A DNA stretch of 64,000 bases from a candidate division FCPU426 bacterium (GTDB lineage: Bacteria > Oederibacteriota > Muellerivitia > Muellerivitales > Muellerivitaceae): NCBI GenBank assembly GCA_003152075.1, contig PLZG01000034.1, forward strand, positions 1-64,000, written 5' to 3'. Of the stretch, positions 220-23,497 are shown piece after piece. The notes under the pieces were generated by a model. That model was not told the DNA's origin and did no database searches. It saw only the letters and a list, made by a program, of their open reading frames with translations. Made by a program: the position numbers and the translations under genes. Within the stretch, counting starts at the first letter, position 1, and each line of letters begins with the position of its first letter.

Positions 220-3042
220 TTGATTCCACTCACGGGTTTCATTTTGCCCCTCAAACGTTTTTTGTTCGCGGGTACCTTTTTTATTTTGGCCCCGGCAATC
301 CTTCCGGCCGCCGTCACGCCGGACATCCAGGTCGACCAGACAGGCTACCTTCCCACGGAAACCAAGCTTGCCATGATTTCCAACGCCTCCGCCACGGGCA
401 CATTTACAGTGCGCCAGGTTTCGGGTGGGGCGACGGTGTTCAACGGAACCCTAAGCGCCTCGGCAGTGGACAGCAATTCGGGCTTAACCCTTCGCAACGC
501 CGATTTTTCCGCCGTAACGGCTACCGGTAACTACTGCCTGGATGTGGCGGGGTTGGGGCAGAGCTATTACTTCACCATTGACCCAGCGACTTTCTCCAAC
601 GCTTTCTACGAAACCATGCGTTTTTACACCGGGCAACGCTGCGGAACTGGTGTGACCATTGTCAACGCTGGAACCACTTGGACCCATGCCGCCTGCCACA
701 CGGCCGATGGGACTTTTGATCCTTCCTCGGGAAAATCCGGCACAAAGGCAGCCACCGAGGGCTGGCACGACGCGGGGGATTACGGAAAGTACGTGGTGAA
801 TTCCGGCATTTCCACCGGTGAATTGCTTTGGACTTACGAGTGGTATGCCAACCGGATCGGCGGGATGAACCTGAATATCCCTGAATCGGGCAATGGCACA
901 CCGGACATCCTAAATGAAATCCGATGGAACCTGGAGTGGTTGCTTACCATGCAAGACGCCGATGGGGGAGTGTGGCACAAACTGACCACGGCGGCTTTCG
1001 ACCCATTTGAGATGCCGGAATTCGACTCAGCAGGAACGCGCCTTATCATCGGGAACAACGCGACGCCCTTTAAGACCACGGCCGCCTCAGCGGATTTTGG
1101 CGCCGTCATGGCCATCGCTTCCCGATTGTTCCAACCCTATGACGCCACTTTTTCCACCACATGCCTGAACGCGGCTGTCAGCGCCTGGGGCTGGGTGCAG
1201 CTGAATCCCAACGTAACTTTCACGGCCAATCCTCCCGGTATCAGCACGGGAACTTATGGCGATGGCACGGTGACGGACGAAATCCTTTGGGCTTCGGCGG
1301 AGCTTTTCCGAGCGACGGGGGGGGCGGCTTATAACACTTATTTCATGGGTCATTACACCAACTGGGCACCCACCGTTAATGGCAACGCCTATCCCCAGGA
1401 TTGGTCCAACCTGCACCAACTGGCCATGTGGACCTATTATTTCTCCGGCCAAGCATCCGCCAGCGCGGCGGCCCGCACTACCATCAAGACCGATACCATT
1501 AACGCCGCCAACGCCATCGTTGCAAGGCAAAACGCGGACGGCTACCGGGTTAGCCTCAGAACGGCCGATTACATTTGGGGTTCCAACGGCGGGGTGGGGA
1601 ACTTTGGCATCCTACTCCTCATGGCCAACGCCATGACTCCCACGGCGAGTTACGTCCAGGCCACCCTGGATGACATCCATTACCTTTTGGGCCGCAATGG
1701 CAACAAGATTTCATTCGTGACCGACTTGGGCACAACCTTTCAAATGCATCCCCACCATCGGCCCAGCGGGGCGGATGGCATCACTCTCCCCTGGCCTGGC
1801 ATGCTGGCAGGCGGGCCGAATCAAAATGCGTCAGGTGACGGCATTACTCCAACCTCTCCGGGTACGAAACCCGCTCTTTGTTATGCTGATATTCAAGGGG
1901 CCTATGGTTCCAATGAGGAAGCCATTAATTGGAACGCCCCGCTCGTATTCATTCTGGCCAGCACCCTTCCGACCCCAGGAGGCACACGCACCCCCACACC
2001 AACAAATACGTTTTTTTTTACCCCGACACCGACTTCCACCTCGACTCCAACTTTGACCCCTACCAAAACCGCCTCAAACAGCCCCACCTTAACCTCAACC
2101 AATACGTTGTCCCCTACGGTGACAAGTAGCGCTACGCCCAGCCCTACTCGGACGCCGAGCAACACGCTAACCTTAACCTTTACTATTAGTGCTACTCAAA
2201 CGCCAACGAATACACCAACAAGCACGGCTACCAAAACACCAACCTCTACCGCCACAGCGTCACCAAGCTTTACCCCGACCAACAGGCCCTCAAGCTCGCC
2301 TACGAAGACACCTACGATTACCCCAACCTCTACCGCGACCTCATCGCCGACTAACACAATTACTTTGACGTTTACCTTGACCCCTACTGGAACCCTGAGC
2401 CCCACGAATAGTTTTACCCCTACTAATAGCCCAACGAAAACTACTACGAACAGCCCAACGGATTCACCTTCCTCCACTGCTACCTCAACCCCAACTTCTT
2501 CCCCGACCCCTAGCTTCACGGTAACGGCGACAATGTCCCCGACCAACAGTTCCACCTCGACTGTGACCAGCGTGAATACGGCCACAGCTACCCCTACTTC
2601 CAGCTCCACCTCTTCGCCGACAAAAACCCTCACTTTAACCGTAACCATGACCCCAACGGCCTCGTCTACCAGTTCGCCGACAGCTACGGTTACAATTACT
2701 TCAACGGTAACATTGGCAAATACATCGACCATGACAGCTATCGCAGGTTATTCAGGTCCGGTCACCTTTTCCCCCCCCTATCCCAACCCCTCCAAGGATG
2801 GTTCGCCCATTAATGTAGACATAGGGCTTCCGGGGCCAGCTTCCATGGATTGGGCGGTTTTTACCACGGCTTTCCGTAAGATCAACTCGGGGACTTTGTC
2901 CCTGTCAGGTAGTGGGACTTTCCAATGGGATCTACGGGATAAAACAGGAGCCCAGGCGGCGATGGGGCTTTATTACATCCGCCTGGAAGTGTCGGGGGAC
3001 TTCGGGAAAGTAAAGAAAATCTTGAAGGTTTTAGTTCTTTAG
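220..3042 (+). CDS. secreted GH9 endoglucanase-like protein with Thr-rich linker and PPYPNP C-terminal domain
   Basis: Probable secreted glycoside hydrolase family 9 enzyme (endo-beta-1,4-glucanase type), 940 aa. In order: signal peptide (about 1-31), CelD-type N-terminal Ig-like domain (about 35-120), GH9 catalytic domain (about 125-580), Thr/Ser/Pro linker (about 585-845), C-terminal domain (about 848-940). GH9 hallmarks are GWHDAGDYGKY at 181-191 with the catalytic-base aspartates, HPHHRPSG near 510-517, and NEEAINWN at 565-572 with the acid glutamate. The C-terminal domain (PPYPNP, W.VFTTAFRKI, GLYYIRLEV, KILKVLVL) recurs in the SBBP and GH116 proteins of this window. The start is TTG at 220, preceded by AAAGGA with 6-nt spacing. 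GH9 substrates are usually cellulose or xyloglucan-like beta-glucans; the actual substrate cannot be read from sequence. Confidence 0.9.
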   Translation: MIPLTGFILPLKRFLFAGTFFILAPAILPAAVTPDIQVDQTGYLPTETKLAMISNASATGTFTVRQVSGGATVFNGTLSASAVDSNSGLTLRNADFSAVTATGNYCLDVAGLGQSYYFTIDPATFSNAFYETMRFYTGQRCGTGVTIVNAGTTWTHAACHTADGTFDPSSGKSGTKAATEGWHDAGDYGKYVVNSGISTGELLWTYEWYANRIGGMNLNIPESGNGTPDILNEIRWNLEWLLTMQDADGGVWHKLTTAAFDPFEMPEFDSAGTRLIIGNNATPFKTTAASADFGAVMAIASRLFQPYDATFSTTCLNAAVSAWGWVQLNPNVTFTANPPGISTGTYGDGTVTDEILWASAELFRATGGAAYNTYFMGHYTNWAPTVNGNAYPQDWSNLHQLAMWTYYFSGQASASAAARTTIKTDTINAANAIVARQNADGYRVSLRTADYIWGSNGGVGNFGILLLMANAMTPTASYVQATLDDIHYLLGRNGNKISFVTDLGTTFQMHPHHRPSGADGITLPWPGMLAGGPNQNASGDGITPTSPGTKPALCYADIQGAYGSNEEAINWNAPLVFILASTLPTPGGTRTPTPTNTFFFTPTPTSTSTPTLTPTKTASNSPTLTSTNTLSPTVTSSATPSPTRTPSNTLTLTFTISATQTPTNTPTSTATKTPTSTATASPSFTPTNRPSSSPTKTPTITPTSTATSSPTNTITLTFTLTPTGTLSPTNSFTPTNSPTKTTTNSPTDSPSSTATSTPTSSPTPSFTVTATMSPTNSSTSTVTSVNTATATPTSSSTSSPTKTLTLTVTMTPTASSTSSPTATVTITSTVTLANTSTMTAIAGYSGPVTFSPPYPNPSKDGSPINVDIGLPGPASMDWAVFTTAFRKINSGTLSLSGSGTFQWDLRDKTGAQAAMGLYYIRLEVSGDFGKVKKILKVLVL

Positions 3043-5098: not shown

Positions 5099-6259
5099 AT
5101 GTTTAATCTGGCCAATAAGATTATTGTAATATCCCGAAAAATATTTTCGTTTCTAATGTTATGCAGATTGACAGCAGTTGGTCCTGCCGGCTCACTTAAA
5201 AAAATCCACCCCCCCCGTTTATCCCGCTTGGTTACCCTTCTTCTAACCCTGATTTTCTTTATTGGAGCAAGCGGTACCTCTTTGGCTTGGGTAAACGGAG
5301 ACTTTGAAACCTGTAACCTCACCGGGTGGACGACTTCCACCAATTCAGGCGGCGCTCTGGTTTGCGGGCCTCCGACCGCGACTTCGGTAACCTCTGGTTG
5401 GGCACCGCTTTCCAACAGCATGCTTAACATGGTTCATGGAGGGAATTGCGCGGCCCAGTTGTACTCGGCGCGGGGCGACACGAACCACGTGGATTGGGCC
5501 CGCATCGAGCAGACAGATGTCGTCCCCACCAACGGCAACGACTGCCTTTCCTTCTGGTTCGCGGCAGTCTTTGAGGATCATCATTATGAAATAGGCCAGT
5601 CGTTGGATACCTACATCGAGGCGGATGTCATTGTGGGCGGCGCCACTGTGGCCGCCCTTATCTATAATTGGGCCAACAGTCTCCCCCTTGTGGTAAACGA
5701 CGGTTTGACGGGGTCCGGGGGGGCGGCCTGCGCGATCACCCCCCTTACCCAAAACCAGTGGGGTTACCTTCCCTGGACCAACTATTACATCAACCTTTGC
5801 CATTACATAGGACAAACGGTGACGCTTCGCTTCACGGATTACGATTGTGGCCAGGGTGGGCACTATGGATGGGGTTACGTGGATGACGTGGCATGGATGA
5901 GCTGTCCGTCTCCTCCCGTGGTGACCTTGACCAAAGCTAATAATCCAACAGGGGCGGTCAACCAAGGGCAGACCATCACCTATACCTTGACCTACTCGAA
6001 TGTTGGCGGCACCGCCGACAACGGAGTGACGGTAACCGACATGGTTCCAGCCGGAACGACCTTGGTCCCCAATTCCCAAACCAGCGTCCCCGCTGTGCCC
6101 ATCACATTCGTGAACGGCAATCAGGTGGGTTGGGACGTCGGTTATTTGGCGGCGGGCGCTTCGGGCACGCTTAGTTTCCAGGTAACGGTAGATGTGACCT
6201 GTACGACTGTTTCCAACCAGGCGGTTTTAACCGATTTAATTCAACCGTGTAATCCTTGA
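5099..6259 (+). CDS. secreted DUF11-domain surface protein
   Basis: A 386-residue exported protein. A hydrophobic segment (LVTLLLTLIFFIGASGTSLAW, roughly residues 43-63) follows an unusually long basic N-terminus, so the true start may be internal. The mature part begins WVNGDFETCNLTGWT, the N-terminal pattern of secreted beta-sandwich proteins with a (G/N)DFE..N.(S/T)GW motif. Residues about 275-380 form one DUF11 repeat (VVTLTKANNPTGAVNQGQTITYTLTYSN...VTVTDMVPAGTTL), a cell-surface Ig-like fold. It carries no PPYPNP C-terminal domain. The stop overlaps the ribosome-binding site of the next gene, so the two are likely co-transcribed. Function unknown; probably structural or adhesive. Confidence 0.75.
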   Translation: MFNLANKIIVISRKIFSFLMLCRLTAVGPAGSLKKIHPPRLSRLVTLLLTLIFFIGASGTSLAWVNGDFETCNLTGWTTSTNSGGALVCGPPTATSVTSGWAPLSNSMLNMVHGGNCAAQLYSARGDTNHVDWARIEQTDVVPTNGNDCLSFWFAAVFEDHHYEIGQSLDTYIEADVIVGGATVAALIYNWANSLPLVVNDGLTGSGGAACAITPLTQNQWGYLPWTNYYINLCHYIGQTVTLRFTDYDCGQGGHYGWGYVDDVAWMSCPSPPVVTLTKANNPTGAVNQGQTITYTLTYSNVGGTADNGVTVTDMVPAGTTLVPNSQTSVPAVPITFVNGNQVGWDVGYLAAGASGTLSFQVTVDVTCTTVSNQAVLTDLIQPCNP

Positions 6260-6267
6260 GGAAAATC

Positions 6268-9200
6268 ATGCGATTTGAATGGCTGTTAAAAAACATGCAT
6301 CGATTTTTCGAAAGGGGTTTGGATCCTATAAAGATAAACTTGGTGACTTTTCGCCCAGATCAATTTATTTCTTTGGGCGTTTCCATTAAAAAAACCGGAA
6401 TCCTTGGGGTTCTTAGCTTGATGCTGGCCTTGGTTTTCCTTTTCCCCGCCGCCAAGGTCCAGGGACAAACTTTCACCACCATCACCGTTACGACGACCAA
6501 TAGTTGTGTCGCGGTGGGGGATAACATCGCCGTCACGGCCGTCTTTGGGCCCACCAACCAACAATTTCAAACGGACGACTACGTCATCGGTTTTGGTAAT
6601 GCCGCGTACCCATTTGGGTCGTCGGGGGCCTGTACCGTGGCCTATAACACCGGATCCCTACCCACCACCGCTCCTGTTACAGTTGTCCAATCCATCACTG
6701 TTCCAGCCACGGTTACGGGAAACTGGACCAACGTCGATGTCGTTGGAATCCAAAACAGCACTTACTTGTGCGGAGGCAGTACCATTATCGGTAGCGTGGC
6801 TATCAATGTTTGCGGGTCCCCCCAACCCACCGATACCTTAACTAAAACGCCGACCCGTACCAATACCCGTACTCCAACACCCTCCGGGCCCACCCACACC
6901 CCAACGGTTACTCCCACCCCGATTCAAAGGTCCATCGTATCGAATATTGTCTCCAATACCGTATTGGGGAACTGTTCGCCGGTTCCGACGGTCACCAGAA
7001 CATCTACGAGCACAAGGACTTCTACCCCCACCTTCTCTTCTACTCCTTCCGCAACCAGCACCTCTACCACTACTAACACTTCCACCAGGACATTTTCATC
7101 CACATCCACTTCCACCAGCACCTCAACCTCCACTTCTACCAGCACATTGACTTCGACCACCACATCTACTTCAACCAGTACCTCAACCAGTACTTCAACC
7201 TCCACTTCGACTAGCACATCCACTTCAACCAGTACTTCGACAGCGACGGCGACTTCCACGGCAACCTCCACTTCAACGTCTACCAAAACCTCAACTTCGA
7301 CGAGCACGTCTACCAGCACATCCACCGCGACGGCCACTTCCACATCCACTTCGACATCGACCAGTACCTCCACCTGGACCTCGACTAACACAGCCACTGT
7401 AACTTCGACTTCCACAAGTACTTCCACATCCACGTCCACTTCTACCTCTACTTCCACCAGAACCTCAACCTCTACCCCGACAGCTACTAACACGTCAACC
7501 TCCACAAATACATTCACGCCCACCCGGACCTTTACTTCCACCAACACCGCGACGGGAACGAAAACGCCAACCAATAGCCCCACCGAGACAGCTACCTTTA
7601 CGAACACCTTTACTGCCACCAACACAGCGACTTCTACGAACAGCTTCACTTCTACCTCGACCTCAACGGACACATCCACGTCCACTTCTACCCGGACTCC
7701 TACCCCTACGTTTACGAGCACGAACACCTTTACAAGCACTTTTACTTGGACCGTTACCAACACGCCGACTCCCACCAATAGCTTCACCTCTACCCGAACC
7801 TTTACTCCCACCAATACCTTTACGGGAACGAGAACGCCGACCAATACCCCCACTCAGACGGCCACCTTCACCAACAGCTTCACCTCAACCAACACCGCAA
7901 CCTCCACCAACACTTTCACCGCTACCTTTACCCGGACCTTTACCAATACCCCAACCTCCACGAATACCCCGACCAACAGTTTCACGGCCACCAACACCCC
8001 TACGGATACATTTACCCCCACCTCGACCAACACGCCGACATCCACCAATAGCGCCACCAATACATTCACTTGGACCAATACCCGGACCTTCACCAACACT
8101 TTCACGGCTACCAACACCCCAACCAGCACCAAAACGGCCACGGATACATTTACCTGGACCAATACCCGAACCTTTACCAACACCTTTACTTCCACAAACA
8201 CGCCCACCGATACCCCTTCTTTCACGTCGACCTTTACTTGGACGAATACCAAGACTTTCACTAACACCTTCACTTCCACCAATACTCAAACCAGTACTAA
8301 CACCCCCACTGATACCTCTACCTCTACCCCAACCTTTACTTGGACCAATTCCCGGACTTTTACTCCCACCTTCACACCCTCTTACACTCCTACCAATACC
8401 AACAGCGCCACTTATACTTCTACGCCTACTCCGACCTTTACCACGACCAATACACACACCTTTACGGACAGCCCCACAGCGACTAATAGCTCCACGAGTA
8501 CCTATACCCCCACCGGGTCTTTCACGCCAACTCCTACCTACACCCTTACCGTGACGAAAACCTTCACCAACACCTTTAGCCCAACCAACAGCTTCACATT
8601 CACGAATACGGCAACATTCACCCTTACCTTTACGCCAACTTTCACGCTTACCATCACGCCAACGCCCAGTCCCAACGTGGATATCAGCAAGACTTCTTCC
8701 GAGTCGGTGGCAAGTTCAGGGGACACTATTATTTACACCCTGACCCTGGTTGTGACGGGAAGCGTCGCCAACACGGTCCATGTCTCGGACGTCCTGCCCA
8801 ATCACTTGATTTTTGTAGCAATGGGCCCGGTGACGATGGGAGGAACCCCTAATTGGAACCCCTCTACGAAGATGCTAACTTGGGATTGGACTTCTTTGGC
8901 ACCTGGAACTTACGCCCTTACCTACCAGGCCACGGTGGATTCCTCCGTTACGACAGGGACGGTCTTGGTCAATAACGCCCAGTTGACCTACGCCGGCCTG
9001 TCAGGCACAAAGTCCGCCTCGGTGAGTGTTTCCTTGTCCAGCCTTTACACGGTTCACATCGCGGTCTACAACGAGGCGGGCGAACTGGTGAAAGACTTAT
9101 GGGTAAAGGAAAGATCCCAGGAAATCGTAAACATAAATTTTGTTGGAAGTCCCACGATTACGAGCGTGAATGGGCAGGTTTACATCGAGTACAAGGGTCA

Positions 9201-9945
9201 ACAAATAGCGACCTGGGATGGCACCAACTCAAACGGCGATCCGGTCTTGAATGGGAAGTACTTCGTGAAGGTAGACAATACGGATTCGGCGGGGAACGTG
9301 ATGGGTGTGACCCAAATGGTGACCGTGAGCCGGTCGATCGCTAAGGTTACGGTAAACATCTATAACGAGGCGGGGGAAATCGTCCGGCATCTGTACAGCT
9401 GGGCGGATGATCCCGGCAATAGCACTTTGTTAGGTGTCCAATTGTCCAGCAACGTCATTGAGCCATCGCTTGTAAACGCCTCCAACGGCACCTTGAAAAT
9501 CACCTCCTCGAATGGGATGGCCTTAGTGTGGGATGGGAGAAGCGATAGCGGGGTGGTTGTGTCCAATGGCCATTACTCCATCGAGATTAATTACGTGGAT
9601 GGAAAGGGCGGGGACCAGGTTATCACTCGTGGGGTTTTGGTGGAATCGGGCAACAAATCCATTACGAAAGGTAACGTGTTTGCGGGGCCGAACATCCTCA
9701 AAAACGGAAATACTTCAACCCTTGTCCAAGTTGTCTCGGACACCAACTTCACCTTGACTGCCCGCTTGTATAACACCGCCGGGGAACGTGTAATAGCCCC
9801 AGTGACAGGCGTGCCGGGGGCTAACAGTGTAAACCTCAATTTAGCCGGGATCGCGAGCGGTCTTTACTTTATCGCTGTTGACTTGGTCACCCCCCAAGGC
9901 GGTTTGGCGGGCCATCAAGTCACCCAGATCGTCATTCAGCATTAA
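6268..9945 (+). CDS. giant Thr/Ser-repeat surface protein with DUF11 and FlgD-like Ig domains
   Basis: A secreted protein of about 1,225 residues. After a long N-terminus with a hydrophobic export segment (around residues 45-65) comes a small Ig-like domain, then about 600 residues of Thr-dominated low complexity. These run from near-perfect Thr-Ser alternation (about 7090-7490) to NTPT/FTNTFT-type repeats (to about 8665). A DUF11 domain follows (NVDISKTSSESVASSGDTIIYTLTL...), then three FlgD-like Ig modules marked by VYNEAGELVKDL, WDGTNSNGDPVLNGKYFVKV, IYNEAGEIVRHL, WDGRSDSGVVVSNGHYSIEI and LYNTAGERV. I chose ATG 6268 because TGAGGA, which contains the upstream stop, sits 6 nt before it; an in-frame TTG at 6256 is less likely. 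The layout suggests a long stalk displaying domains away from the cell surface. Thr-Ser stalks are often O-glycosylated, but that is inference. Confidence 0.8.
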   Translation: MRFEWLLKNMHRFFERGLDPIKINLVTFRPDQFISLGVSIKKTGILGVLSLMLALVFLFPAAKVQGQTFTTITVTTTNSCVAVGDNIAVTAVFGPTNQQFQTDDYVIGFGNAAYPFGSSGACTVAYNTGSLPTTAPVTVVQSITVPATVTGNWTNVDVVGIQNSTYLCGGSTIIGSVAINVCGSPQPTDTLTKTPTRTNTRTPTPSGPTHTPTVTPTPIQRSIVSNIVSNTVLGNCSPVPTVTRTSTSTRTSTPTFSSTPSATSTSTTTNTSTRTFSSTSTSTSTSTSTSTSTLTSTTTSTSTSTSTSTSTSTSTSTSTSTSTSTATATSTATSTSTSTKTSTSTSTSTSTSTATATSTSTSTSTSTSTWTSTNTATVTSTSTSTSTSTSTSTSTSTRTSTSTPTATNTSTSTNTFTPTRTFTSTNTATGTKTPTNSPTETATFTNTFTATNTATSTNSFTSTSTSTDTSTSTSTRTPTPTFTSTNTFTSTFTWTVTNTPTPTNSFTSTRTFTPTNTFTGTRTPTNTPTQTATFTNSFTSTNTATSTNTFTATFTRTFTNTPTSTNTPTNSFTATNTPTDTFTPTSTNTPTSTNSATNTFTWTNTRTFTNTFTATNTPTSTKTATDTFTWTNTRTFTNTFTSTNTPTDTPSFTSTFTWTNTKTFTNTFTSTNTQTSTNTPTDTSTSTPTFTWTNSRTFTPTFTPSYTPTNTNSATYTSTPTPTFTTTNTHTFTDSPTATNSSTSTYTPTGSFTPTPTYTLTVTKTFTNTFSPTNSFTFTNTATFTLTFTPTFTLTITPTPSPNVDISKTSSESVASSGDTIIYTLTLVVTGSVANTVHVSDVLPNHLIFVAMGPVTMGGTPNWNPSTKMLTWDWTSLAPGTYALTYQATVDSSVTTGTVLVNNAQLTYAGLSGTKSASVSVSLSSLYTVHIAVYNEAGELVKDLWVKERSQEIVNINFVGSPTITSVNGQVYIEYKGQQIATWDGTNSNGDPVLNGKYFVKVDNTDSAGNVMGVTQMVTVSRSIAKVTVNIYNEAGEIVRHLYSWADDPGNSTLLGVQLSSNVIEPSLVNASNGTLKITSSNGMALVWDGRSDSGVVVSNGHYSIEINYVDGKGGDQVITRGVLVESGNKSITKGNVFAGPNILKNGNTSTLVQVVSDTNFTLTARLYNTAGERVIAPVTGVPGANSVNLNLAGIASGLYFIAVDLVTPQGGLAGHQVTQIVIQH
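7090..7490 (+). repeat. Thr-Ser dipeptide repeat tract, ACN-TCN type
   Basis: About 130 codons alternate Thr with Ser inside the giant surface protein. The six-base unit is not a clean microsatellite: all four ACN codons and five or more Ser codons, including AGC and AGT, are mixed from unit to unit, so protein periodicity is kept while DNA identity is lost. The minus-strand valine-rich open frames over this stretch are shadows of it. Confidence 0.85.
8062..8360 (+). repeat. degenerate tandem repeats TFTWTNTRTFTNTFT
   Basis: Within the same linker a longer unit containing TFTWTN(T/S)(R/K)TFT(N/P)TFT recurs about four times with variable spacers (NTFTWTNTRTFTNTFTATNTP and relatives). This indicates internal duplication superimposed on the general Thr pattern. 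Confidence 0.7.
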
Positions 9946-10000: not shown

Positions 10001-12778
10001 ATGAAACGCCGAACCGTTATTGTTTTATTTACCGTTCCCGCGCTTTCTTATTTTCTCTTTGGCTTGGGACCGTCTCTCAAGCCCACGCCCCCCGGGGCTA
10101 AACTTTACAACTTGCCTTTGGAACGCCAACTCCGCCAAAATCCAGACTACGGCAAACTGCCACTGGCCTTTGAGCCCAACCAGGGGCAGGCTGATTCCCA
10201 AGCAAAGTTCCTAGCCCGGGATAGGGGTTACAGTCTGTTTATAACAGGGGCTGATGCGGTGCTGATCCTTAAGAAATCACAAAGGGCAGCGAAAGGTGGG
10301 TGGATTCCACCGGACCCTAAGGGTCCGAAAAACCTTTTCGGAATTCATCATCCACATTCCACCCCGGATGATCTATTGCGTTTGAATCTTACGGGCGCCA
10401 ATAAAGCCCTCTCCCCGGAAGGTCTTGAGAAACTTCCTGGCATCAGCAACTACTTTATCGGTAATGATCCCTCGAAATGGCGCACCCAAATCCCCCAATA
10501 CGCGAAAGTGAGGATTCCGGGTGTTTACCCAGGTGTGGACATGGTTTATTACGGCAATCCAGGGAATTTGGAATATGACTTCCAGGTGAAGCCGGGAGCG
10601 GACCCGAATGTGATTCGCGTGAAATATGAGGGCGCGGACCAGGCAGTGGTGGATAGCGAAGGCGGTCTTAACCTTACGGTCGGCGGCAGGAAGGTGGTTT
10701 TCAAGGCGCCAGTTGTTTACCAGGAAGGTTTGTTCGGAAAAAGAACCGTGGTGGGCAGTTACCTTTCCACTGGGGAAAAAGAATTTGGTTTTGAGGTGAA
10801 GGATTACGATAAATCGAAAACCCTCGTAATCGACCCTGTGCTTGATTATTCGACTTACCTGGGCGGAAGCGGCGACGATGGAGCCGAAGTCATCGTGGTG
10901 GATTCCTCGGGGAATGCCTATTTGGCGGGCTTTACCGGCTCTACCGACTTTCCCACGACAGCGGGGACCTATGTTACGGTCGCCCCCGGCGGCGGGCTTA
11001 ACTTTGATGCCTTTGTATCGAAACTCAATCCCTCGGGAACCGCTTTGGTTTATTCGACTTACCTGGGGGGGAACCTTAACGACACCGAGGGCCAGGGACT
11101 GGCGGTGGATTCAAGCGGAAATGCTTATGTGTCGGGATATACGGCCACATCAGATTTTCCCACGACTGCCGGGGCTTATCAGACGATTTTTAGCAGTAGT
11201 GAAGACGCCTTTGTGACAAAGCTGGACGCCACCGGAAGCACTTTGGTCTATTCGACCTTCCTGGGCGGGAGTCTCGCCGATGAAGGCATAGGCCTCGCGG
11301 TGGATTTATCTGGGAATGCCTATTTGACGGGGAATACTTGGGGAGGTTTCCCAACGACTGCCGGGGCTTATCAGACGGCTTTTGGTGGCGGTTCTACCGA
11401 CGCCTTTGTGACGAAACTAAACGCCTCAGGAAGCGCTTTGCTCTATTCGACCTATCTGGGTGGGAGTTTAAAGGTGAACACGAGTGGCGTTACGCTTTGG
11501 TACGGTAACGATAACGGTTTAGGCATCGCGGTGGATTCAATTAGCGGATATGTCTATGTGACCGGTTGGACCGAATCCGGCGATTTTCCCACGACCAGTG
11601 GGGCTTATCAGACATCTTTTCTCGGTCCTTTCCCAGCCCAGGACGTCTTTGTGGCAAAACTGAATCCGGTGGGTGGAGGGACGAGCGATTTGCTCTATTC
11701 CACCTACCTGGGCGGGAGCGCTGGCGATACCGGCAACGCCATCGCGGTGGATTCAAACGGATATGCCCATGTTACCGGGTACACGGATTCAAGTACTTAT
11801 CCCACGACCGCCGGAGCTTTTCAGACGATTTTTCCCGGTGGCATTGGCGCGGCTTTCGTGACGAAGCTGAACAACACCGGAACGGGATTGGTTTATTCGA
11901 CCTACCTCGGCGCAAGTGGCGGGGATTATGGTAATGGCATAGCGGTGGATTCGACGGGGAACGCCTACGTGACCGGATATACGGGCAGTGGTTTTCCAAC
12001 GACTTCGGGGGCTTTTCAGACGGTTTATGGAGGCGGCACTAATGACGCTTTTTTTGCGAATTTAAACGCCAACGGAACGGGGTTGATCTATTCGACTTTT
12101 CTTGGCGGGGCCGGGGCGGATTTTGGCAATGGCATCGCGGTGGACCCTTCGGGAAATGCCTATGTAACAGGCTATACGGAGGGAAGTTTCCCAACGACCT
12201 CGGGATCCTTTCAAACAGCATTTGGGGGAATTTTGTATGACGACGTTTTTGTGACCAAGTTTGACGCTTCCAATTTTTACACACCCACCCCGACCATCAC
12301 CAATACTCCCACCATAACTAATACACCTACTATCACCAACACACCCACAATCACTGCCACGGTGACTAAAACCCCGACTCAAACTCCCAGCTTTACACCC
12401 ACTATCACGGCCACGGCGACTAAAACCCCTACTCAAACTCCCAGTTTAACCCCCACCCCATCCATAACCCCCACGGATAGCCCAACCCCTTTCACCGGTA
12501 CTGCCATTTATCCACCCTACCCAAACCCGGTTCAAGGGGGAAAGGTTTCCTGCCTCGTCAAGGTTCCTGGCCTTTCGGCAGTGCGATGGAAAGTTTTTAC
12601 CTCGTCTTTCCGGAAGATATTCGAGGACCAGCTACAGATTTCATCGGCGGGGACCTTTGGGTGGGGACTGAGGGACCAGGGAGGGGCACCCGTGGCTAAT
12701 GGACTCTACTATATTGAAGTGGAGGTAACAGGTCCCCGGCCATTGACCAAAATTTTGAAAGTAATGGTATTGAGGTGA
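10001..12778 (+). CDS. SBBP seven-bladed beta-propeller secreted protein with PPYPNP C-terminal domain
   Basis: A 925-residue exported protein. After a signal peptide (about 1-24) comes a DUF7948-like N-terminal domain ([31 protein letters not shown]...), typical of SBBP proteins. Seven SBBP repeats follow, each with a YST(Y/F)LG(G/A) strand and a (A/V)VD.(S/N)GN(A/G)Y turn (about 283-750). Seven copies fit one complete seven-bladed propeller; the fourth is enlarged by an insertion. A short Thr/Pro/Ile linker (TITNTP tandem units) leads to the C-terminal PPYPNP domain shared with the GH9 and GH116 proteins ([28 protein letters not shown]). Start ATG 10001 has GAAGGAG upstream, somewhat far. 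Likely a surface-displayed binding or scaffold protein; the ligand is unknown. Confidence 0.85.
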
Positions 12779-13840: not shown

Positions 13841-15460
13841 ATGGCCCATTTAAAACGTTGGCTACCCTTATATTTCCTTCTCTTTGCCCCCTCCGCTTTT
13901 ACCCCTCTTTTCGCCCAAACACAGGCCCTAACCGAAGACCAAAAGTGCCTTCAGGTTCTTAACCGCCTTACCTTTGGCCCTAAACCCGGTGACCTGGAAC
14001 AGGTGAAGAAAATGGGAATAGACGCCTTTCTTAAAGAGCAATTGAATCCTGAAAAACTGGATGATGCCCTTTGCGATAAGGATTTAAAGAGTTACCCCAC
14101 CCTGACGGAAAGCATCAACTCGCTCCTGATGGAATATCCCCAGCCCGGGGTCAACATCATGAGGCCTGATTTGCGCAACAAAGTCCTCTCCCCCAGTGAG
14201 AATGAAAAAGCCTATGGACGCATTTACAGCATGCTGAGCGAGTTATCCGCGGCCAAACTGACGAGGGTTTTGGAAAGCCGCCGGCAACTTTATGAGGTGA
14301 TGGTGGATTTCTGGTTCAACCACTTCAACGTTTCCTTCGACAAGAATGAGGTGGAGTGGTCGATGGGGGTTTACGAAAGGGAAGCGATCCGTCCCTTCGC
14401 CTTGGGCAAGTTTAAGGACCTTCTGCTGGCGGTGGCGAAAAGCCCCGCAATGATGCTGTACCTAGACAATAACGACAACTTTGCCGATCCCAACTTCAAG
14501 CCAGTGGCCGACACCAGCATGGGGGCGAAGGGTGGAAGCATGATGATGATGCAAAGCATGCCGGGGAAAGGCTTGCGTATTAATGAGAACTACGGGCGAG
14601 AGCTATTAGAGCTTCACACCCTAGGTGTGGACGGTGGTTATACCCAACTGGACGTAGTGAATACGGCCCGGGTCTTTACCGGATGGTCGGTGGCCGGCAT
14701 CCAACCAGACTCAGCGCCCCAACCCGTCGAGTTCAAGTTCAAGCCCTGGCACCATGACACTAATGAGAAGGTCATCCTGGGACAAACCTTTGGGCCTAAC
14801 GACGGCGTTAAGGAAGGGGAGGCGGTCATCGAGATGCTTTCCCGTAGGCCTGAAACGGCCCACCGCATCGCCTTGAAGCTTTGCCAAAGGTTCCTGGCCG
14901 ATGACCCGCCCGCCGCCCTGGTTAAGACGGTGGCGGATAAATTTTTAGCTTCGGATGGGGATATTAAGGAAACCCTATTGGCGATCATCAATTCGCCCGA
15001 ATTTTTTGATCCCCAGTATTACCGGGTGAAGGTGAAAACCCCCTTTGAGTTTGTGGCCAGCGCCATGAGGGCGGTTGACGCCCATCTCACCGATTGGAAC
15101 CCTTCCATTCAGGTCCTGGAATCCATGGGTCAGCCCCTTTACCGTTGCGAGGCCCCGACGGGGTACCCTCTTACGGCTAACGCCTGGGTAAGTTCCGCTT
15201 CTTTGCTGGGGAGAACGAATTTCGCGGCCAAGCTTTTTGACCCTGCCGAAAAGAATGCCCCGGTATTCAGTTTGACCCCATTCGAAACAGGTGCCGCCGG
15301 GGGTGGGGGAACTGCCGTGTTACAAAACGTTTCAAAGGTTTTATTGAATGGAGAAATGTCCGATAGCACCCGCCAGGCCCTTTTGAATGGCCAAACTTCC
15401 CTGGATACCAGAAAAATGGCGGCATTGGTCATGGCCTCGCCCGATTTTCAAAGGAGATAA
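13841..15460 (+). CDS. DUF1800-family exported protein
   Basis: A 539-residue protein with a signal peptide (MAHLKRWLPLYFLLFAPSAFTPLFAQT) and full-length DUF1800 signatures: LNRLTFGPKPGDLEQVKKMGIDAFLKEQL near the N-terminus, MVDFWFNHFNV in the middle, ENYGRELLELHTLGVDGGYTQ and LSRRPETAHRIALKLCQRFL later. DUF1800 genes are usually paired with DUF1501 genes, as here (next gene, 137 nt downstream). The biochemical function of the pair is not established; both are exported and often occur near polysaccharide or surface genes. The protein ends in MAALVMASPDFQRR, as usual for the family. Confidence 0.9.
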   Translation: MAHLKRWLPLYFLLFAPSAFTPLFAQTQALTEDQKCLQVLNRLTFGPKPGDLEQVKKMGIDAFLKEQLNPEKLDDALCDKDLKSYPTLTESINSLLMEYPQPGVNIMRPDLRNKVLSPSENEKAYGRIYSMLSELSAAKLTRVLESRRQLYEVMVDFWFNHFNVSFDKNEVEWSMGVYEREAIRPFALGKFKDLLLAVAKSPAMMLYLDNNDNFADPNFKPVADTSMGAKGGSMMMMQSMPGKGLRINENYGRELLELHTLGVDGGYTQLDVVNTARVFTGWSVAGIQPDSAPQPVEFKFKPWHHDTNEKVILGQTFGPNDGVKEGEAVIEMLSRRPETAHRIALKLCQRFLADDPPAALVKTVADKFLASDGDIKETLLAIINSPEFFDPQYYRVKVKTPFEFVASAMRAVDAHLTDWNPSIQVLESMGQPLYRCEAPTGYPLTANAWVSSASLLGRTNFAAKLFDPAEKNAPVFSLTPFETGAAGGGGTAVLQNVSKVLLNGEMSDSTRQALLNGQTSLDTRKMAALVMASPDFQRR

Positions 15461-15478
15461 GGGTCTAGATTTTTCTTT

Positions 15479-15562
15479 AACCCTCGCCCCTTGCTGGAGA
15501 GGGATGTTTACTGGGCCTAAGACGCCCTCATCCCAGCCTTCTCCCCTCTAGGGAGAAGGGGA
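15479..15562. repeat. intergenic repeat, family D, with strong hairpin
   Basis: CCCTCGCCCCTTGCTGGAGA followed by GGG, then CCCTCATCCCAGCCTTCTCC and GGGAGAAGGGG: a CCCTC-rich inverted repeat. It contains a tight hairpin CCTTCTCCC/GGGAGAAGG at 15537-15559 between the DUF1800 and DUF1501 genes, which could attenuate read-through. A related copy lies at 24612-24758. Confidence 0.6.
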
Positions 15563-15597
15563 TTTGCAGTAGAGTTGTAAGGGTAAAAGGAGTCGTC

Positions 15598-16839
15598 ATG
15601 GAATCAAAACATAATCCCCAGATGTCCCGTAGGGATTTCCTGAAATTGGCGGGCACTGTCAGCGCCGGAATGGCGATTTGGTCCATGCCGCCTTGGCTTC
15701 ATGCTGCCGCCAGGATGGCTTCAGGCTCCTCCTCCAAGTCCAAGACCCTGGTGGTGCTCTTTCAAAGAGGGGCTGCCGACGGGCTAAATACGGTTATTCC
15801 CTTCGCGGATCCCAACTATCTAAGGGCCCGGCCTACCATAGGGATGAAGTACCTTACTGGGGAAAAGGGTATTTTGGACTTGGACGGTCATTTTGGCTTC
15901 CACCCCTCTTTGGCCCCTCTTCTGCCGCTTTGGAAGGAGGGGCATTTGGCGGTCATCCATGCTGCGGGGTCGCCGGATAACAGCCGTTCCCACTTTGACG
16001 CCCAGGATTACATGGAAACCGGAACCCCTGGCGTGAAGGGTACGGCGGACGGGTGGCTTAACCGGACTGTGGCTACCTTTCCCAAGGCCGGGGTGGACCC
16101 CTTAAACGCCGTGGCTATTTCGGCCAGGCCCCCCCGGATATTGAGGGGCGAAATCCCGGTTACTTCCATGACCAGCCTGAAGGACTATGCCTTTTCTGAA
16201 GGCCCCGAGGCGGCTAAGGCTTTCGAGGATATGTATTCCCAATCAAGCGGACTTTTAGGCAAGGCGGGAATCGCCACCGCCGAATCCATTAAGAAACTCC
16301 AGGCCCTGTTGGCCTCTGGTTCGAGCACATCGGTTGCAGGATATGGAAACGGGTACTTAGGCCATGCCCTTTCGGACCTGGCTCGAGTTTTGAAATCGGG
16401 CGCGGAAGTGAAGGTGGCCTTTATCGATATTGGCGGGTGGGACCACCATACGGGCGAAAGCTACCGGCTGGGTTCCCTGTTGGAAGATTGGGGCAAGGGT
16501 CTTTCGGCCTTTTGGAAGGACTTGGGTGACAAGGCTCGGGATGTGGTGGTAGTTTCCATGACGGAGTTCGGGCGGACCGTCGCCGAGAACGGTTCCCAAG
16601 GAACGGACCATGGCCATGGCGGTGTCATGTTCGTGCTGGGTGGCCCCGTTAAGGGCGGCAAGGTTTACGGCAAGTGGGCGGGGTTGGAAAAGGAAAACCT
16701 CTATGAGGGACGGGACCTTCCCGTGACTACTGATTTCAGGCAGGTGGTTTGTGATGTTTTGGGGAAACATCTGGGAGTCAAGAACCAGTCAGCGATCTTT
16801 CCGGGGTATAAGCCTGGCCTGGCATTGGGTTTGATTTAA
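15598..16839 (+). CDS. DUF1501-family protein with Tat signal
   Basis: A 413-residue member of DUF1501, a sulfatase/alkaline-phosphatase-like fold. A twin-arginine signal is visible (MSRRDFLKLAGTVSAG) ending near HAAARMA. Family motifs seen: LVVLFQRGAADGLNTVIPF, HPSLAPLLPLWKEGHLAVIHAAG, SRSHFDAQDYME, FIDIGGWDHHTGE, SMTEFGRTVAENGSQGTDHGHGG. The Asp/His residues in these motifs are the candidate metal or active-site residues, but no reaction is proven for the family. Start ATG 15598 has AAAGGAG upstream. Paired with the preceding DUF1800 gene. Confidence 0.9.
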   Translation: MESKHNPQMSRRDFLKLAGTVSAGMAIWSMPPWLHAAARMASGSSSKSKTLVVLFQRGAADGLNTVIPFADPNYLRARPTIGMKYLTGEKGILDLDGHFGFHPSLAPLLPLWKEGHLAVIHAAGSPDNSRSHFDAQDYMETGTPGVKGTADGWLNRTVATFPKAGVDPLNAVAISARPPRILRGEIPVTSMTSLKDYAFSEGPEAAKAFEDMYSQSSGLLGKAGIATAESIKKLQALLASGSSTSVAGYGNGYLGHALSDLARVLKSGAEVKVAFIDIGGWDHHTGESYRLGSLLEDWGKGLSAFWKDLGDKARDVVVVSMTEFGRTVAENGSQGTDHGHGGVMFVLGGPVKGGKVYGKWAGLEKENLYEGRDLPVTTDFRQVVCDVLGKHLGVKNQSAIFPGYKPGLALGLI

Positions 16840-19549: not shown

Positions 19550-22500
19550 GTGGTAAATTTTATATGTAGTTTTCCCCACTTCTTTCGGAACGGACGGTTT
19601 GGATTGCCCCTCAAACAATCGTCTCTGTCTCGACATAAAACTTCCTTAAATCAATTTCTGTTTGTTTCGTCCATTCTTTTACTCATGAGTTCGCCTGTAA
19701 ATGCCGCTACAAACATTCCCGCCCAAGCCTGGAGCCGAGATATAAACGCTGGGGGTTACCTGGACGGGGCACCCCTGGGGGGCTTTGGAGCGGGCACAGT
19801 TACCCGGAATTTCGGGGGGGATTTTTACCTTGGGCGTCTTAATGTCGCAGCAGCCCCCACAACCTGGACCAACAATAGCCCCTATGTCGTGGATGCTAAT
19901 TGTGGCTTTTACATGTACCAAAAACCCTCCGGTGGAGCGGCAGTTACCTACCACTTAAACGCGACCGCGCTTGGTACGGGACAAGCCACCTATTACTCCC
20001 TCTATCCCAAGTCTTGGGTGGATTATTACGGGTCGGATTTCGCCTGTAAGGCCCGGGTGAGCCAGTTCACGCCCATGATTCCGGGGGATTACATCCGGAG
20101 CAGTTTCCCGGAGGGCATCTTTGAGTGGGATATTTACAACCCCACCTGTACCACCACCGATGTGGGTATTATGCTCACTTGGGACAACACGTTTGGCGGG
20201 GCTAACGCGGCGGTAAGCGTTTCGGGCGGCAATACCGGGCTGGTTTTGACCCGGTCAGGGGCGAGTGCCACCACCAAGAGCCAGGGCGAGTTCGCATTGG
20301 CCTGCGCTTCCAGCGCGGGGGTCACGGTAACCTATCAATCGGCCGCGAGCGTGGCCAATCTGCAAACTTCCTTCGGCGCGGCGGGCACCCTGACCAATGC
20401 CGTTGGCGCCAATTCCATCGGCGGCATCGCCTTTAAGGTGACCCTTTCGCCGGGGCAATCCGTGAAGATCCCCATCGTCCTGGCATGGGATATTCCTCTG
20501 GCCCAACCCGGAACTGGGGCCCAATGGTACCGCGAATACACCCGTACCTATGGAAAGACAGGGCTGAACTCCTTTGCCATCGCCAACGACGCCTTGAATA
20601 ACTATGCCGGTTGGGAAACCTCCATTGATAACTGGCAAGGCGGGGTCCTGGGCGGACCCTACCCCGATTGGTTCAAGCAGATGCTCTTCAATGAACTTTA
20701 CTATTACGTCATTGGCGGCACACTTTGGGAGGCTGGACAGTACGGCTCCACTAACTTCGACGCCGGGCCGGACATGTTCAGCAGTTTGGAATCCTACGTT
20801 TACCCCTTTTATGGCACCTCCGACGTTCGCTTTTACAGTTCCTGGGCGCTGGCCCAAAACTGGCCGAACATCGACAAGCAGGAAGTGGAACAGTTTTGCG
20901 ACAGCGTCACGGTGAACGCTTCCCAGGCCTTGCCGAGACCCGCGGCCATCGGGACCTGCGCCCATGATTTCGGGGCCTTGAACGATGTCTACACCCGATG
21001 GAATGCTTACACTTTCCGAGATTCCACCACCTGGAAGGATTTGAATTCCAAGTTGGTTCTCATGGTTTACCGGGATTGGGAAATGACGGGAAAGAGCGAC
21101 TCGACTTTCTTGAACTATTGCTGGCCCGCCGTGCAGATGGCGATGGCCAAGGTGCATAGCCAGTGCGTATCTACCGGGCCTGTCACCTACAACCTGCCCA
21201 TTTCCAACGGCATCGACCAAACTTACGACAACTTAGGGCTTACCGGGGAGACGGCCTATTGCGGAAGCCTTTACCTAGCCGCTTGCGAGGCCGCGCAAGC
21301 CATGGCGACCCAACAAGGGAACGCGGCTTTGGCCACCACCTATAATTCCTGGTTGACCCTAGGCCAGGCTGACTTTGAGGGAAATCTTTGGAACGCAACG
21401 GGTAACTATTACAACATCGACACGGGTAGCGGGGCGGGAGGGGTGACGGGAGTTGCCCGAATCATGAGCGACCAGCTTTGCGGCCAGTGGTACGCCAAGG
21501 CTTGCGGGCTTTCTGATGTGGTACCTGCAGCCCACGCTGTAAGCGCCTGGCAGACAGTTCACGATAACAACTGGGCCAAGTTTGACGCGGGCGCACATGG
21601 GGAAGTGAATGTCATGACCTCGGCCGGGAGCATTGATGCCAGCACTTCCCAAAGCCAGGAAGCCTGGGTGGGCACGACCTGGGGCGCAGTGGCTGGGATG
21701 ATCCAACAGGGAATGTTCACCCAGGCTGTTTCCATTGGGAATAGCCTCTATAACAGTATCTGGAACCTGGGCTCCATGTGGTTTCGCACCCCGGAAGCCT
21801 GGACCACGGGGCTGACCAACATCCGGGCGCCATACTATATGAGGGCCAACGCCATTTGGGGGGCGAAGCATGCTTATGACGTAAATTCCCCTTGTGGCAA
21901 CGCTACCTGCACCCCCATACCCACCCTTATCCCGACCCCAACGGCTATGGTGAGTTGTCCCGGCACGCCAACCTTCACCTTTACCAATACAACCTTTTTG
22001 ACGCCAACAAGGACGCCCACCAATAGTCCTTCGGCTACGCTCACTAGGACGGCGACGAATAGCCCAACGCGGACCGCAACCGCTACGCCAACCCCATCGG
22101 CAAGTAATACTTCCACTAGGACGTCCACCCCAACCCTCACCAATAGCCCGAGCTCATCTCCCACGGCTTCCCTGACTTTGACGCCGCCCTTTACCTCTAC
22201 AGCCTCGGCAACACCCACTAAGACGCCTTCAAACTCCCCTACGAACAGTTTGACCATGACCGTTACCAATACGGTTTCCCGGACTCCCACCAATAGCCCA
22301 ACCCAGACCCCGACTAATTCCCCCGCTAATACCTCTACGGCCACGGCATCGAATAGCCCTACAGGCACACCGACCCATTCCCCTACGCCAACCATTACTT
22401 CGACACCCACCAACACACCCCTGATTACCAATACCTCCACTCAAACCCCAGCGGATTCGATGACGCCGAGTCCCACGAATAGTGCGACTGCGTCCCTCAC

Positions 22501-23497
22501 CGCTACGCCTTCGGCTTCGCCCACGCCCACAAAGACAGAGACTTTAAGCCCGACGAATTCTTTCACCTCTACGGCGTCTTTGACCGCAACCAACAGCCCC
22601 ACAAAGACACCTACCTCAACACCAACCCTTAGCTTTACCAATACGGCGACGCTAAGCCCGACTAATAGTCCCAGTAGCACCAAAACTAACACGGCCACCT
22701 CTAGCCCAACCACCACTCCCACTAATTCATCGACCAATACTTCGACAGTTACCGCCTCGAATACACCTTCGGGGACTCCAACTCAGTCACACACCTCGAC
22801 TATTTCCTCGACCCCCACGAATACGCCATTGATTACCAATACCCCAACTCAAACCCCGACCAGTTCGATGACGCCGACAGCGTCCCTCACCGCAAGCCGG
22901 ACCCCAACCAATACACCTTCCAAAACGCCTACCCAGAGCCCATCAAACTCCCCGACTTTGACTTCAACCAATACCGTGACCTTATCTCCCATAAACACTT
23001 TTACCTTTACAAGCACGTTCACAAGAACATTCACACTTTCAAACACCTTTACTAGTACTCCAACAACCACTAGTACGGCCACGGCGTCTAATACCTCTAC
23101 CCCCACTAACACATTAACTTTCACACCTTCACCCACATCCACATTCACTTCAACCGCCACCTTTACGACGACCCCAACCAATAGCTCCTCGCCCACGGCC
23201 CTGCCCACGATGGTCGTGATATTGCCACCCTATCCCAACCCATCCAGAGATGGGTCTCCGGTGACGATTGGCCTATTACTGCCGGGGCCCGCCAGCCTTC
23301 ATTGGTCGGTCTTCACCACGGCCTTTCGGAAGATAAAGGACGAATCAACCACCCTGAGCGGTAGCGGCAACTTTAGTTGGGACCTCAAGGATAAGCTGGG
23401 TGCCAAGGTGGCCGATGGGCTTTATTACCTGCGGGTGGAAGTTAAAGGGGACTTTGGGAAGGATCAAAAAATCCTAAAGGTTTTAGTTCTGCCTTGA
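19550..23497 (+). CDS. secreted GH116 glycosidase with Thr-rich linker and PPYPNP C-terminal domain
   Basis: A 1,315-residue secreted protein. After the export segment (SLNQFLFVSSILLLMSSPVNA) comes a glycoside hydrolase family 116 (GBA2-like) module: N-terminal GH116 domain from PAQAWSRDINAGGYLDGAPLGGFGAGTV, then the catalytic (alpha/alpha)6 domain. The expected nucleophile is E414 in SSLESYVYPFYGTSDVRFYSS, and the acid aspartate lies in IDQTYDNLGLTGETAYCGS (D556). Characterised bacterial GH116 enzymes are beta-glucosidases or beta-xylosidases. A Thr/Ser/Pro linker of about 420 residues leads to the C-terminal domain (PPYPNP, W.VFTTAFRKI, GLYYLRVEV, KILKVLVLP) shared with the GH9 and SBBP proteins. 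GTG 19550 is the most upstream start; the signal peptide suggests the real one may be later. Confidence 0.85.
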   Translation: MVNFICSFPHFFRNGRFGLPLKQSSLSRHKTSLNQFLFVSSILLLMSSPVNAATNIPAQAWSRDINAGGYLDGAPLGGFGAGTVTRNFGGDFYLGRLNVAAAPTTWTNNSPYVVDANCGFYMYQKPSGGAAVTYHLNATALGTGQATYYSLYPKSWVDYYGSDFACKARVSQFTPMIPGDYIRSSFPEGIFEWDIYNPTCTTTDVGIMLTWDNTFGGANAAVSVSGGNTGLVLTRSGASATTKSQGEFALACASSAGVTVTYQSAASVANLQTSFGAAGTLTNAVGANSIGGIAFKVTLSPGQSVKIPIVLAWDIPLAQPGTGAQWYREYTRTYGKTGLNSFAIANDALNNYAGWETSIDNWQGGVLGGPYPDWFKQMLFNELYYYVIGGTLWEAGQYGSTNFDAGPDMFSSLESYVYPFYGTSDVRFYSSWALAQNWPNIDKQEVEQFCDSVTVNASQALPRPAAIGTCAHDFGALNDVYTRWNAYTFRDSTTWKDLNSKLVLMVYRDWEMTGKSDSTFLNYCWPAVQMAMAKVHSQCVSTGPVTYNLPISNGIDQTYDNLGLTGETAYCGSLYLAACEAAQAMATQQGNAALATTYNSWLTLGQADFEGNLWNATGNYYNIDTGSGAGGVTGVARIMSDQLCGQWYAKACGLSDVVPAAHAVSAWQTVHDNNWAKFDAGAHGEVNVMTSAGSIDASTSQSQEAWVGTTWGAVAGMIQQGMFTQAVSIGNSLYNSIWNLGSMWFRTPEAWTTGLTNIRAPYYMRANAIWGAKHAYDVNSPCGNATCTPIPTLIPTPTAMVSCPGTPTFTFTNTTFLTPTRTPTNSPSATLTRTATNSPTRTATATPTPSASNTSTRTSTPTLTNSPSSSPTASLTLTPPFTSTASATPTKTPSNSPTNSLTMTVTNTVSRTPTNSPTQTPTNSPANTSTATASNSPTGTPTHSPTPTITSTPTNTPLITNTSTQTPADSMTPSPTNSATASLTATPSASPTPTKTETLSPTNSFTSTASLTATNSPTKTPTSTPTLSFTNTATLSPTNSPSSTKTNTATSSPTTTPTNSSTNTSTVTASNTPSGTPTQSHTSTISSTPTNTPLITNTPTQTPTSSMTPTASLTASRTPTNTPSKTPTQSPSNSPTLTSTNTVTLSPINTFTFTSTFTRTFTLSNTFTSTPTTTSTATASNTSTPTNTLTFTPSPTSTFTSTATFTTTPTNSSSPTALPTMVVILPPYPNPSRDGSPVTIGLLLPGPASLHWSVFTTAFRKIKDESTTLSGSGNFSWDLKDKLGAKVADGLYYLRVEVKGDFGKDQKILKVLVLP
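22328..22876 (+). repeat. intragenic duplication with 408-bp offset in the GH116 linker
   Basis: Residues encoded at 22328-22468 and at 22736-22876 align over about 47 positions: NTSTATASNSPTGTPTHSPT continuing to NTPLITNTSTQTP, against NTSTVTASNTPSGTPTQSHT continuing to NTPLITNTPTQTP. The constant offset of 408 bp points to an in-frame segmental duplication within the linker, since partly diverged. Confidence 0.8.

Follow-up and report, generated by a model that had tools for sequence, protein, structure and literature searches.

A stalk with threonine or serine at every second residue, encoded by mixed codons, in a predicted secreted protein of a candidate division FCPU426 bacterium

The stretch of candidate division FCPU426 DNA analysed here (64,000 nucleotides, contig PLZG01000034.1, positions 1 to 64,000; hereafter, the window) encodes a 1229-aa protein in which Thr or Ser occupies every second position (the register) along 560 consecutive residues, on DNA whose synonymous codons are mixed. 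Such stalks recur in this genome and across the phylum, lie between diverse modules and C-termini that are often of the sorting type, and contain duplicated units; between copies, the register codons differ almost only at the third base. The window stalk probably serves as a long spacer in a protein that is secreted and probably held at the surface, with the Thr/Ser register kept by selection and the length increased by the copying of mixed units. What makes the case instructive is a low-complexity protein region in which the conserved object is the pattern, not the DNA, and the 7625 steps in the 72 longer stalks from the sample of one genome are enough to gauge selection per repeat base.

Anatomy of the stalk protein

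The features of the protein and of its stalk are as follows.

6256..9945, + strand: open reading frame bearing the stalk, 1229 aa (TTG at 6256, in-frame ATG at 6268)
6268..6468, + strand: N-terminal segment containing a hydrophobic stretch; resembles a signal peptide by eye
6469..6987, + strand: N-terminal region, no recognised family
6829..6888, + strand: short separate Thr-X stretch, 9–10 steps
6988..8667, + strand: main stalk, 280 [T/S]-X steps, 560 aa (residues 244–803, counted from 0)
7090..7479, + strand: segment of the stalk rich in Thr-Ser; 49 TS among 65 steps, 18 distinct hexamers
8230..8453, + strand: mixed 102-nt unit within the stalk, duplicated in tandem and since diverged; 2.2 copies, 76% match
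8668..9942, + strand: C-terminal 425-aa region, predicted all-beta, with 23 matching places in the genome including itself
8689..8820, + strand: DUF11-type repeat (TIGR01451, 27.4 bits, cut-off 24)
9193..9285, + strand: FlgD Ig-like domain (PF13860, 34.5 bits, cut-off 27)
9712..9879, + strand: T9SS type A sorting domain (TIGR04183, 28.2 bits, cut-off 23)

The preliminary description of this DNA had reported a Thr-Ser stalk at 7090–8665, with about 130 residues of alternating Thr and Ser. The stalk is present and larger than claimed (560 residues at 6988–8667, the start having been placed about 100 nt too late), but the Thr/Ser alternation proper is confined to 7090–7479, where 49 of the 65 steps are TS, the remainder being Thr-X. 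The register residue is Thr in 262 and Ser in 18 of the 280 steps, with no other residue; the stalk caller tolerates an isolated non-T/S residue at the register if T comes next, and none is met in 6988–8667. The other position, by comparison, accommodates 18 amino acids (S 85, F 43, N 42, P 36, A 22, R 12, with 12 other types making up the rest). The frame runs without a stop codon through the whole stalk. Long antisense open reading frames of a Val-Glu-Val-type composition overlie it on the − strand (6924–7853 and 7854–8282); these are a mechanical outcome of the ACN/TCN codons and not evidence of genes.

The Pfam matches of the protein are confined to its C-terminus, and an NCBIfam search of 6256–6987 yields none. 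The C-terminal sorting domain that characterizes T9SS type A cargo is recognized in the window protein by TIGR04183, whereas PF18962, the Pfam counterpart of this model, stays below its cut-off (19.7 versus 27). The structural model of the C-terminus, built from an 8-sequence alignment, is all-beta (mean pLDDT 84.4, pTM 0.50). Its clearest single-domain structural match is the CLIPPER domain of a fibrillar adhesin (9ifr, TMt 0.85, 27% identity); the whole-model fold matches, with a TM to the query of 0.13–0.26 among the best 50 of 1919, are set aside, the low values resulting from the model being a string of domains. Seven named loci have a related C-terminus, six of them labelled candidate division FCPU426 and one Proteobacteria.

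Stalks in the window, the genome and the phylum

Three further open reading frames in the window bear Thr-X stalks.

220..3042, + strand: GH9 cellulase with a 100-aa tail; stalks at 1972–2283 and 2302–2739
10001..12778, + strand: DUF7948/SBBP propeller protein; stalk at 12281–12490
19550..23497, + strand: large open reading frame; stalks at 21965–22450 and 22463–23200; tail weak against the T9SS models (best E 0.00018, below the cut-offs)

In the genome as a whole, a nucleotide pattern for 12 Thr codons, (ACNNNN)x11-AC, has 3219 matches compared with 3 for a reversed control, and a 21-Thr-codon pattern has 1759 compared with 0 in the control, overlapping matches being included in these counts. 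The first sample of this genome contains 90 stalks in 46 open reading frames, with register fractions of 0.868 for T and 0.108 for S. The enlarged sample (1,194,376 bases, picked partly for stalks and holding 1841 of the 3219 pattern matches) contains 70 stalk-bearing open reading frames, 63 with complete frames; the longest stalk sampled in this genome has 362 steps. The part that follows the stalk is 81–452 aa long in 61 of the 63 complete frames, and 2 and 1954 aa long in the other two.

The 12-Thr pattern is found in 34 of 45 phylum genomes (this one included) and in 1 of 14 other genomes; the 11 phylum genomes that lack it are the sampled members of three families (f4, f5 and f12). With a 26-Thr-codon pattern, among genomes at least 80% complete, 31 of 42 phylum genomes have matches and 7 of 189 outside the phylum do. 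The phylum FCPU426 is equated with Goldbacteria, and cellulose degradation has been reported in it (PMC7031533). Among the literature matches listed, no description of such stalks in FCPU426/Goldbacteria was found in open-access publications.

The stalk proteins have the architecture of a low-complexity, Thr-rich spacer between modules, and the modules vary. When the pre-stalk regions of 39 of the 57 complete frames in single loci are scanned, DUF7948 and SBBP are found 6 times each (among the families listed, the best 25 of 37), and GH9, GH16, GH18, GH64, GH116, subtilase, kelch, malectin and ice-binding domains in one region each (among the matches listed). Of the 52 complete stalk frames in which the stalk is preceded by more than 60 aa, 40 have a hydrophobic window of 15 aa within their first 110 aa. 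The post-stalk tails, scanned for 55 of the same 57 frames, match TIGR04183 in 24 cases, PF18962 in 23 and FlgD_ig in 32 at E ≤ 0.01, 31 of the 55 thus falling short of TIGR04183 at this threshold. A profile built from three window tails detects 17 of 63 stalk tails (presumably including those three), as against 3 of 879 other frames. For PF18962, the genome has 17 matching places, 9 of them over the cut-off, 2 of these only together with neighbouring matches. Five of the 55 post-stalk regions (genome G000) match an ice-binding-like domain, PF11999.

A 1988-aa SprA-like frame in the genome (G000:C39) has four collinear matches to SprA, the best with an E-value of 3.2e-31, which is under the curated 200-bit cut-off. 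SprA matches are found in 39 of 44 genomes, only 3 of them over the curated cut-off, and in 0 of 14 controls. The 11 phylum genomes of families f4, f5 and f12 have SprA matches and no 12-Thr stalk pattern, which indicates that T9SS needs no such stalk.

Codon mixture in the window stalk

The preliminary description held that neighbouring units use different codons and that the stalk is not the product of fresh slippage, and for the window stalk both points are borne out. The 49 TS steps are spelled by 18 hexamers, with no identical adjacent hexamers in 7090–7479, i.e. a slippage-type hexanucleotide array (identical adjacent units) is not found there. In the same part, the codon entropy is 1.78 bits for T and 2.45 bits for S, compared with 1.71 and 2.35 bits in the usage of ordinary genes. 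The Thr codons of the stalk (ACC 0.48, ACT 0.22, ACG 0.18, ACA 0.12) are close in frequency to those of ordinary genes of the same genome (ACC 0.53, ACT 0.15, ACG 0.22, ACA 0.10), and stalk codon usage resembles that of ordinary genes in all three genomes compared. For genome G014, the impression that stalk codons are far more diverse than the rest of the genome is rejected (Thr codon homozygosity is 0.318 for the stalks as against 0.283 for ordinary genes), since the apparent difference stems from a different amino-acid composition.

The identity of codons for the same residue, computed over the whole stalk and compared with synonymous shuffling within the stalk, is 0.309 versus 0.301 at a lag of 2 codons, 0.315 versus 0.311 at lag 4 and 0.293 versus 0.315 at lag 6. 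It is raised at a lag of 34 codons (0.365 versus 0.319, a value reached by 5 of 300 shuffles), and there are 87 repeated 12-mers compared with 52 after shuffling (6 of 300 shuffles reach 87); both excesses agree with the 102-nt unit at 8230–8453. Tandem Repeats Finder detects weak arrays at 7054–7332 (period 12–30 nt, 64–90% matches), and the stalk-versus-stalk DNA comparison yields no segment pairs with a score of at least 28 within the Thr-Ser part. With codon identity at the level of the shuffles and only faint traces of unit duplication, the window stalk is old and nearly saturated. A natural contrast between uniform and scrambled Thr-Ser stalks is provided by a genome outside the phylum, where G096:C1:399438-399631 is, as far as listed, a run of ACCAGC copies; this run looks like fresh slippage, a look that is missing in the window stalk.

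Unit copying and the substitution pattern

Stalks are related to each other at the DNA level. Among 126 stalks, 239 pairs of stalk-to-stalk repeats score at least 40, compared with a mean of 0.8 in five shuffled-step controls, and 208 stalk pairs with 70–100% identity are kept once two loci that repeat other records are dropped; the identity of the stalk-copy pairs listed ranges from 74 to 100%. Low-stringency stalk alignments are discarded, 53–61% identity being typical of any two stalks among the long alignments listed. Copy shifts within one stalk include 66, 84, 102, 132, 138, 150, 198, 204 and 252 nt, and within open reading frames the shift is 0 mod 6 in 1155 of 1164 cases and 3 mod 6 in 9. 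The multiples of 6 nt are not taken as proof of selection because break-point homology alone would yield the same.

The case that the preliminary description had set against its own reading, the recent expansion of a longer mixed unit, is observed in sister stalks, where copies are up to 100% identical; within the window stalk, it is seen only in much diverged form, at 8230–8453. Given the mixed-unit copies in both places, the codon mixture probably arose through growth by mixed units.

The pattern of substitutions was obtained by comparing the stalks of three genomes with raw DNA, where the partner of a stalk need not be a called stalk: of the 172 strong matches, 170 fall inside called stalks, 2 partly so and 0 outside. 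Over 5246 aligned steps, the mismatch of register codons between copies is 1.5%, 2.1% and 38.9% at the first, second and third base, respectively, compared with 17.6%, 11.7% and 34.9% for the other codon. Third bases of the register thus differ about 20 times more than the first two, and the 190 register replacements consist of 167 T↔S, 11 T↔I, 4 T↔N and 8 others, when single-base neighbours of ACN would by our own estimate give Ser a share of about 28%. These counts are not independent (the copies form multi-copy families, pairs are counted from both sides and the query is always a stalk), so no exact probability is stated. The excess of third-base mismatches together with the predominance of T↔S supports purifying selection on the register Thr/Ser, with looser selection on the other residue, and on this point the earlier proposal of selection for the amino acids holds. 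A global two-fold register, however, is rejected: of the short interruptions, 51 preserve the phase and 50 alter it, that is, the phase flips freely across short breaks. Several of the best 12 of 50 phase-flipping interruptions in G000 stalk open reading frames (e.g. on contigs C13 and C89) resemble T-L-P-P-G-T-N-T.

Origin and likely role of the stalks

In the explanation preferred here, an N-terminal module would precede the stalk, and behind it would lie a beta-sandwich C-terminus with a T9SS-type sorting domain at its end. The target of selection would be Thr (or Ser) at every second residue, with the residue in between loosely constrained; the length of the stalk would shift by gain and loss of mixed units in multiples of 6 nt, probably when ACN-rich segments recombine unequally, after which each copy would drift at synonymous sites until its codons look random. 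Unit copying followed by synonymous drift would suffice to place a conserved protein pattern on scrambled DNA, so that codon selection is unneeded. Judging from the sequence, the protein would be exported by T9SS and positioned at the cell surface, the stalk acting as a spacer that holds the cargo off the outer membrane; it may be extended, with one Thr-lined face, as alternating beta-branched Thr would favour an extended strand with such a face.

Retention of Thr could also reflect a role as glycan acceptor in a mucin-like, O-glycosylated brush, in line with the dominance of T↔S among the register replacements (167 of 190) and with the 7 matches to PMT-family glycosyltransferases in this genome. 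PMT matches, however, are present in 41 of 44 genomes (8 of the 11 stalkless ones among them) and in 8 of 14 controls, so no link between PMT and stalks emerges and their co-occurrence is uninformative as evidence of glycosylation; moreover, the strong preference for Thr over Ser and the spacing at every second residue are not accounted for by an acceptor role alone. The brush is a tenable but rather doubtful explanation, and the Thr residues of the stalk may or may not be glycosylated. It is highly unlikely that the pattern is maintained at the DNA level, as a six-base AC phase, rather than for the protein: an AC dinucleotide does recur every 6 nt and copies shift in multiples of 6, but register codons change to TCN/AGY serine codons, which break the AC phase and keep the hydroxyl residue, and no strong raw-DNA matches of stalks lie outside the called stalks (stalks being called in long open frames only). 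The chance that the stalk is a recent slippage or expansion product of a simple unit, its codon mixture being sequencing or assembly noise, is close to negligible: uniform hexamer arrays exist elsewhere, as in the ACCAGC copies listed at G096:C1:399438, but 18 hexamers in 49 TS steps with adjacent ones never identical, the codon mixture of many other stalks and the frame open all along the stalk speak against it.

Is the codon mixture itself selected?

The preliminary description had further suggested selection against the instability of DNA repeats. In this scenario, synonymous codons would be actively dispersed over about 20 nt and identical adjacent units avoided, as short perfect repeats slip or recombine. 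In the stalks of this genome, the re-use of codons at the variable position, relative to expectation, is 0.77, 0.90, 0.85, 0.96, 0.97 and 1.02 at 1 to 6 steps; at 1–3 steps it amounts to 816 of 3099 compared with 960 expected in the first set (ratio 0.85) and to 288 of 974 compared with 326 expected in the set fetched later (0.88), and 42 of 59 informative stalks are under the expectation. Ordinary genes of this genome have a slight excess of re-use at 2, 4 and 6 codons (z +3.1, +1.0 and +2.9); at lag 1, they have a deficit. Exact repeats of at least 10 nt spaced 6–24 nt apart number 63 in the stalks of this genome compared with 105 expected (copies unmasked), and in the Thr-Ser part of the window stalk, 2 of 117 near identical-dipeptide pairs share a hexamer compared with 6.4 expected (P 0.04). 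Asn (z −3.9) shares in the deficit, as does Phe (z −2.0); with one tRNA for each of these amino acids, alternation between tRNAs would not account for it.

Much of this signal fades under closer comparison. When shared copies are masked, the ratio at three thresholds is 0.898, 0.913 and 0.904 in this genome and 0.97–1.02 in two groups of other genomes, but the masked values at 7 and 8 steps scatter as widely (0.74–0.84 and 1.10–1.13) and the unmasked ones are low at 7 and 15 steps as well (0.89 and 0.92), which implies that the shuffle null is too narrow. The comparison comprises 15 sets from 14 genomes (G002, G004–G008, G014 twice, G019, G022, G025, G028, G031, G034 and G037). Pooled and unmasked, these genomes give 0.94 for the variable codon, yet 1.05 for whole identical steps; five sets lie above expectation (the first set of G014, G006, G028, G034 and G007), and near exact repeats are undepleted (1.00 at 10 nt and longer), with an excess from 14 nt upward. 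Ordinary genes of G014 (z −1.2, −1.2 and +2.2) and G019 (z −1.0, +2.1 and −3.0) have no clear excess of re-use, there is no synergy between the re-use deficit and register-codon identity, and the near-neighbour tests on the window stalk alone, taken over its full length, are at chance, the sole low value occurring at the control distance of 8–15 steps (P 0.04). What survives of the suggestion is about 10% less nearby re-use in this genome after masking; in the 14 other genomes, none is detected. Anti-repeat codon choice is thus a weak signal limited to this lineage and is rejected as a general rule, and active dispersal is an improbable cause of the mixture. The stalks could also serve to test whether coding repeats stay scrambled against instability.

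A still broader picture can be drawn, of a phylum-wide modular system in which secreted enzymes and binding modules would be fitted with interchangeable, length-tunable stalks with Thr at every second residue; these would spread and change length when stalks recombine with one another, selection keeping the Thr face frozen and leaving the other free and, in this lineage, the codons dispersed against short-range instability; taken as a whole, this picture is speculative and unlikely to hold.

Relation to known systems

Thr-rich linkers and T9SS cargo are already known kinds of sequence; new here are the length of the stalks, their strict alternation and their number per genome. Pro/Thr-rich linkers are known in secreted bacterial glycoside hydrolases, e.g. 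those of Cellulomonas, and, like the stalks, are low-complexity Thr-rich spacers between modules, here also on a GH9 enzyme. Unlike such linkers, the stalks reach 362 steps, are found on dozens of proteins in one genome (70 open reading frames in the sample) and in several cases, the window stalk included, do not have mainly Pro at the alternate position. With the T9SS type A cargo of Bacteroidota (TIGR04183/PF18962), the stalk proteins share a passenger and a C-terminal beta-sandwich sorting domain, and the signal-like N-terminus and the SprA-like frame in the genome may be further likenesses; they differ in the phylum (FCPU426/Goldbacteria), in the Thr-X stalk between the passenger and the sorting domain and in the SprA matches being below the curated cut-off. 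Fungal adhesins have Ser/Thr-rich stalks, and the resemblance lies in a long Thr/Ser-rich stalk on a surface protein (here a predicted one); the present stalks are, in contrast, bacterial and strictly alternating.

Fibrillar adhesins are described as surface proteins with repeated stalk domains (PMC8286594). The likeness consists in a (predicted) surface protein with a length-variable stalk, a DUF11-type repeat and the CLIPPER domain 9ifr as a structural neighbour, and the difference in a two-residue alternation instead of folded repeat domains and in the absence of a detected adhesive domain. The Pfam and NCBIfam matches of the 6256–9945 protein include no adhesive domain, and the combination of an adhesive domain with folded stalk domains that marks fibrillar adhesins is not found with these databases.

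If the spacer reading is true, a common stalk would keep many different enzymes, and binding proteins too, on the cell surface in a little-known phylum, and a T9SS-like route would operate outside the Bacteroidota.

Other features of the window

At 13841–16839, two adjacent open reading frames resemble what we take to be a DUF1800/DUF1501 pair. Within a coding region at 41576–41619, a 12-nt tandem repeat, GAAGGTTTGAAA, is present in 3.7 copies, and by eye its surroundings resemble a cluster of flagellar genes.
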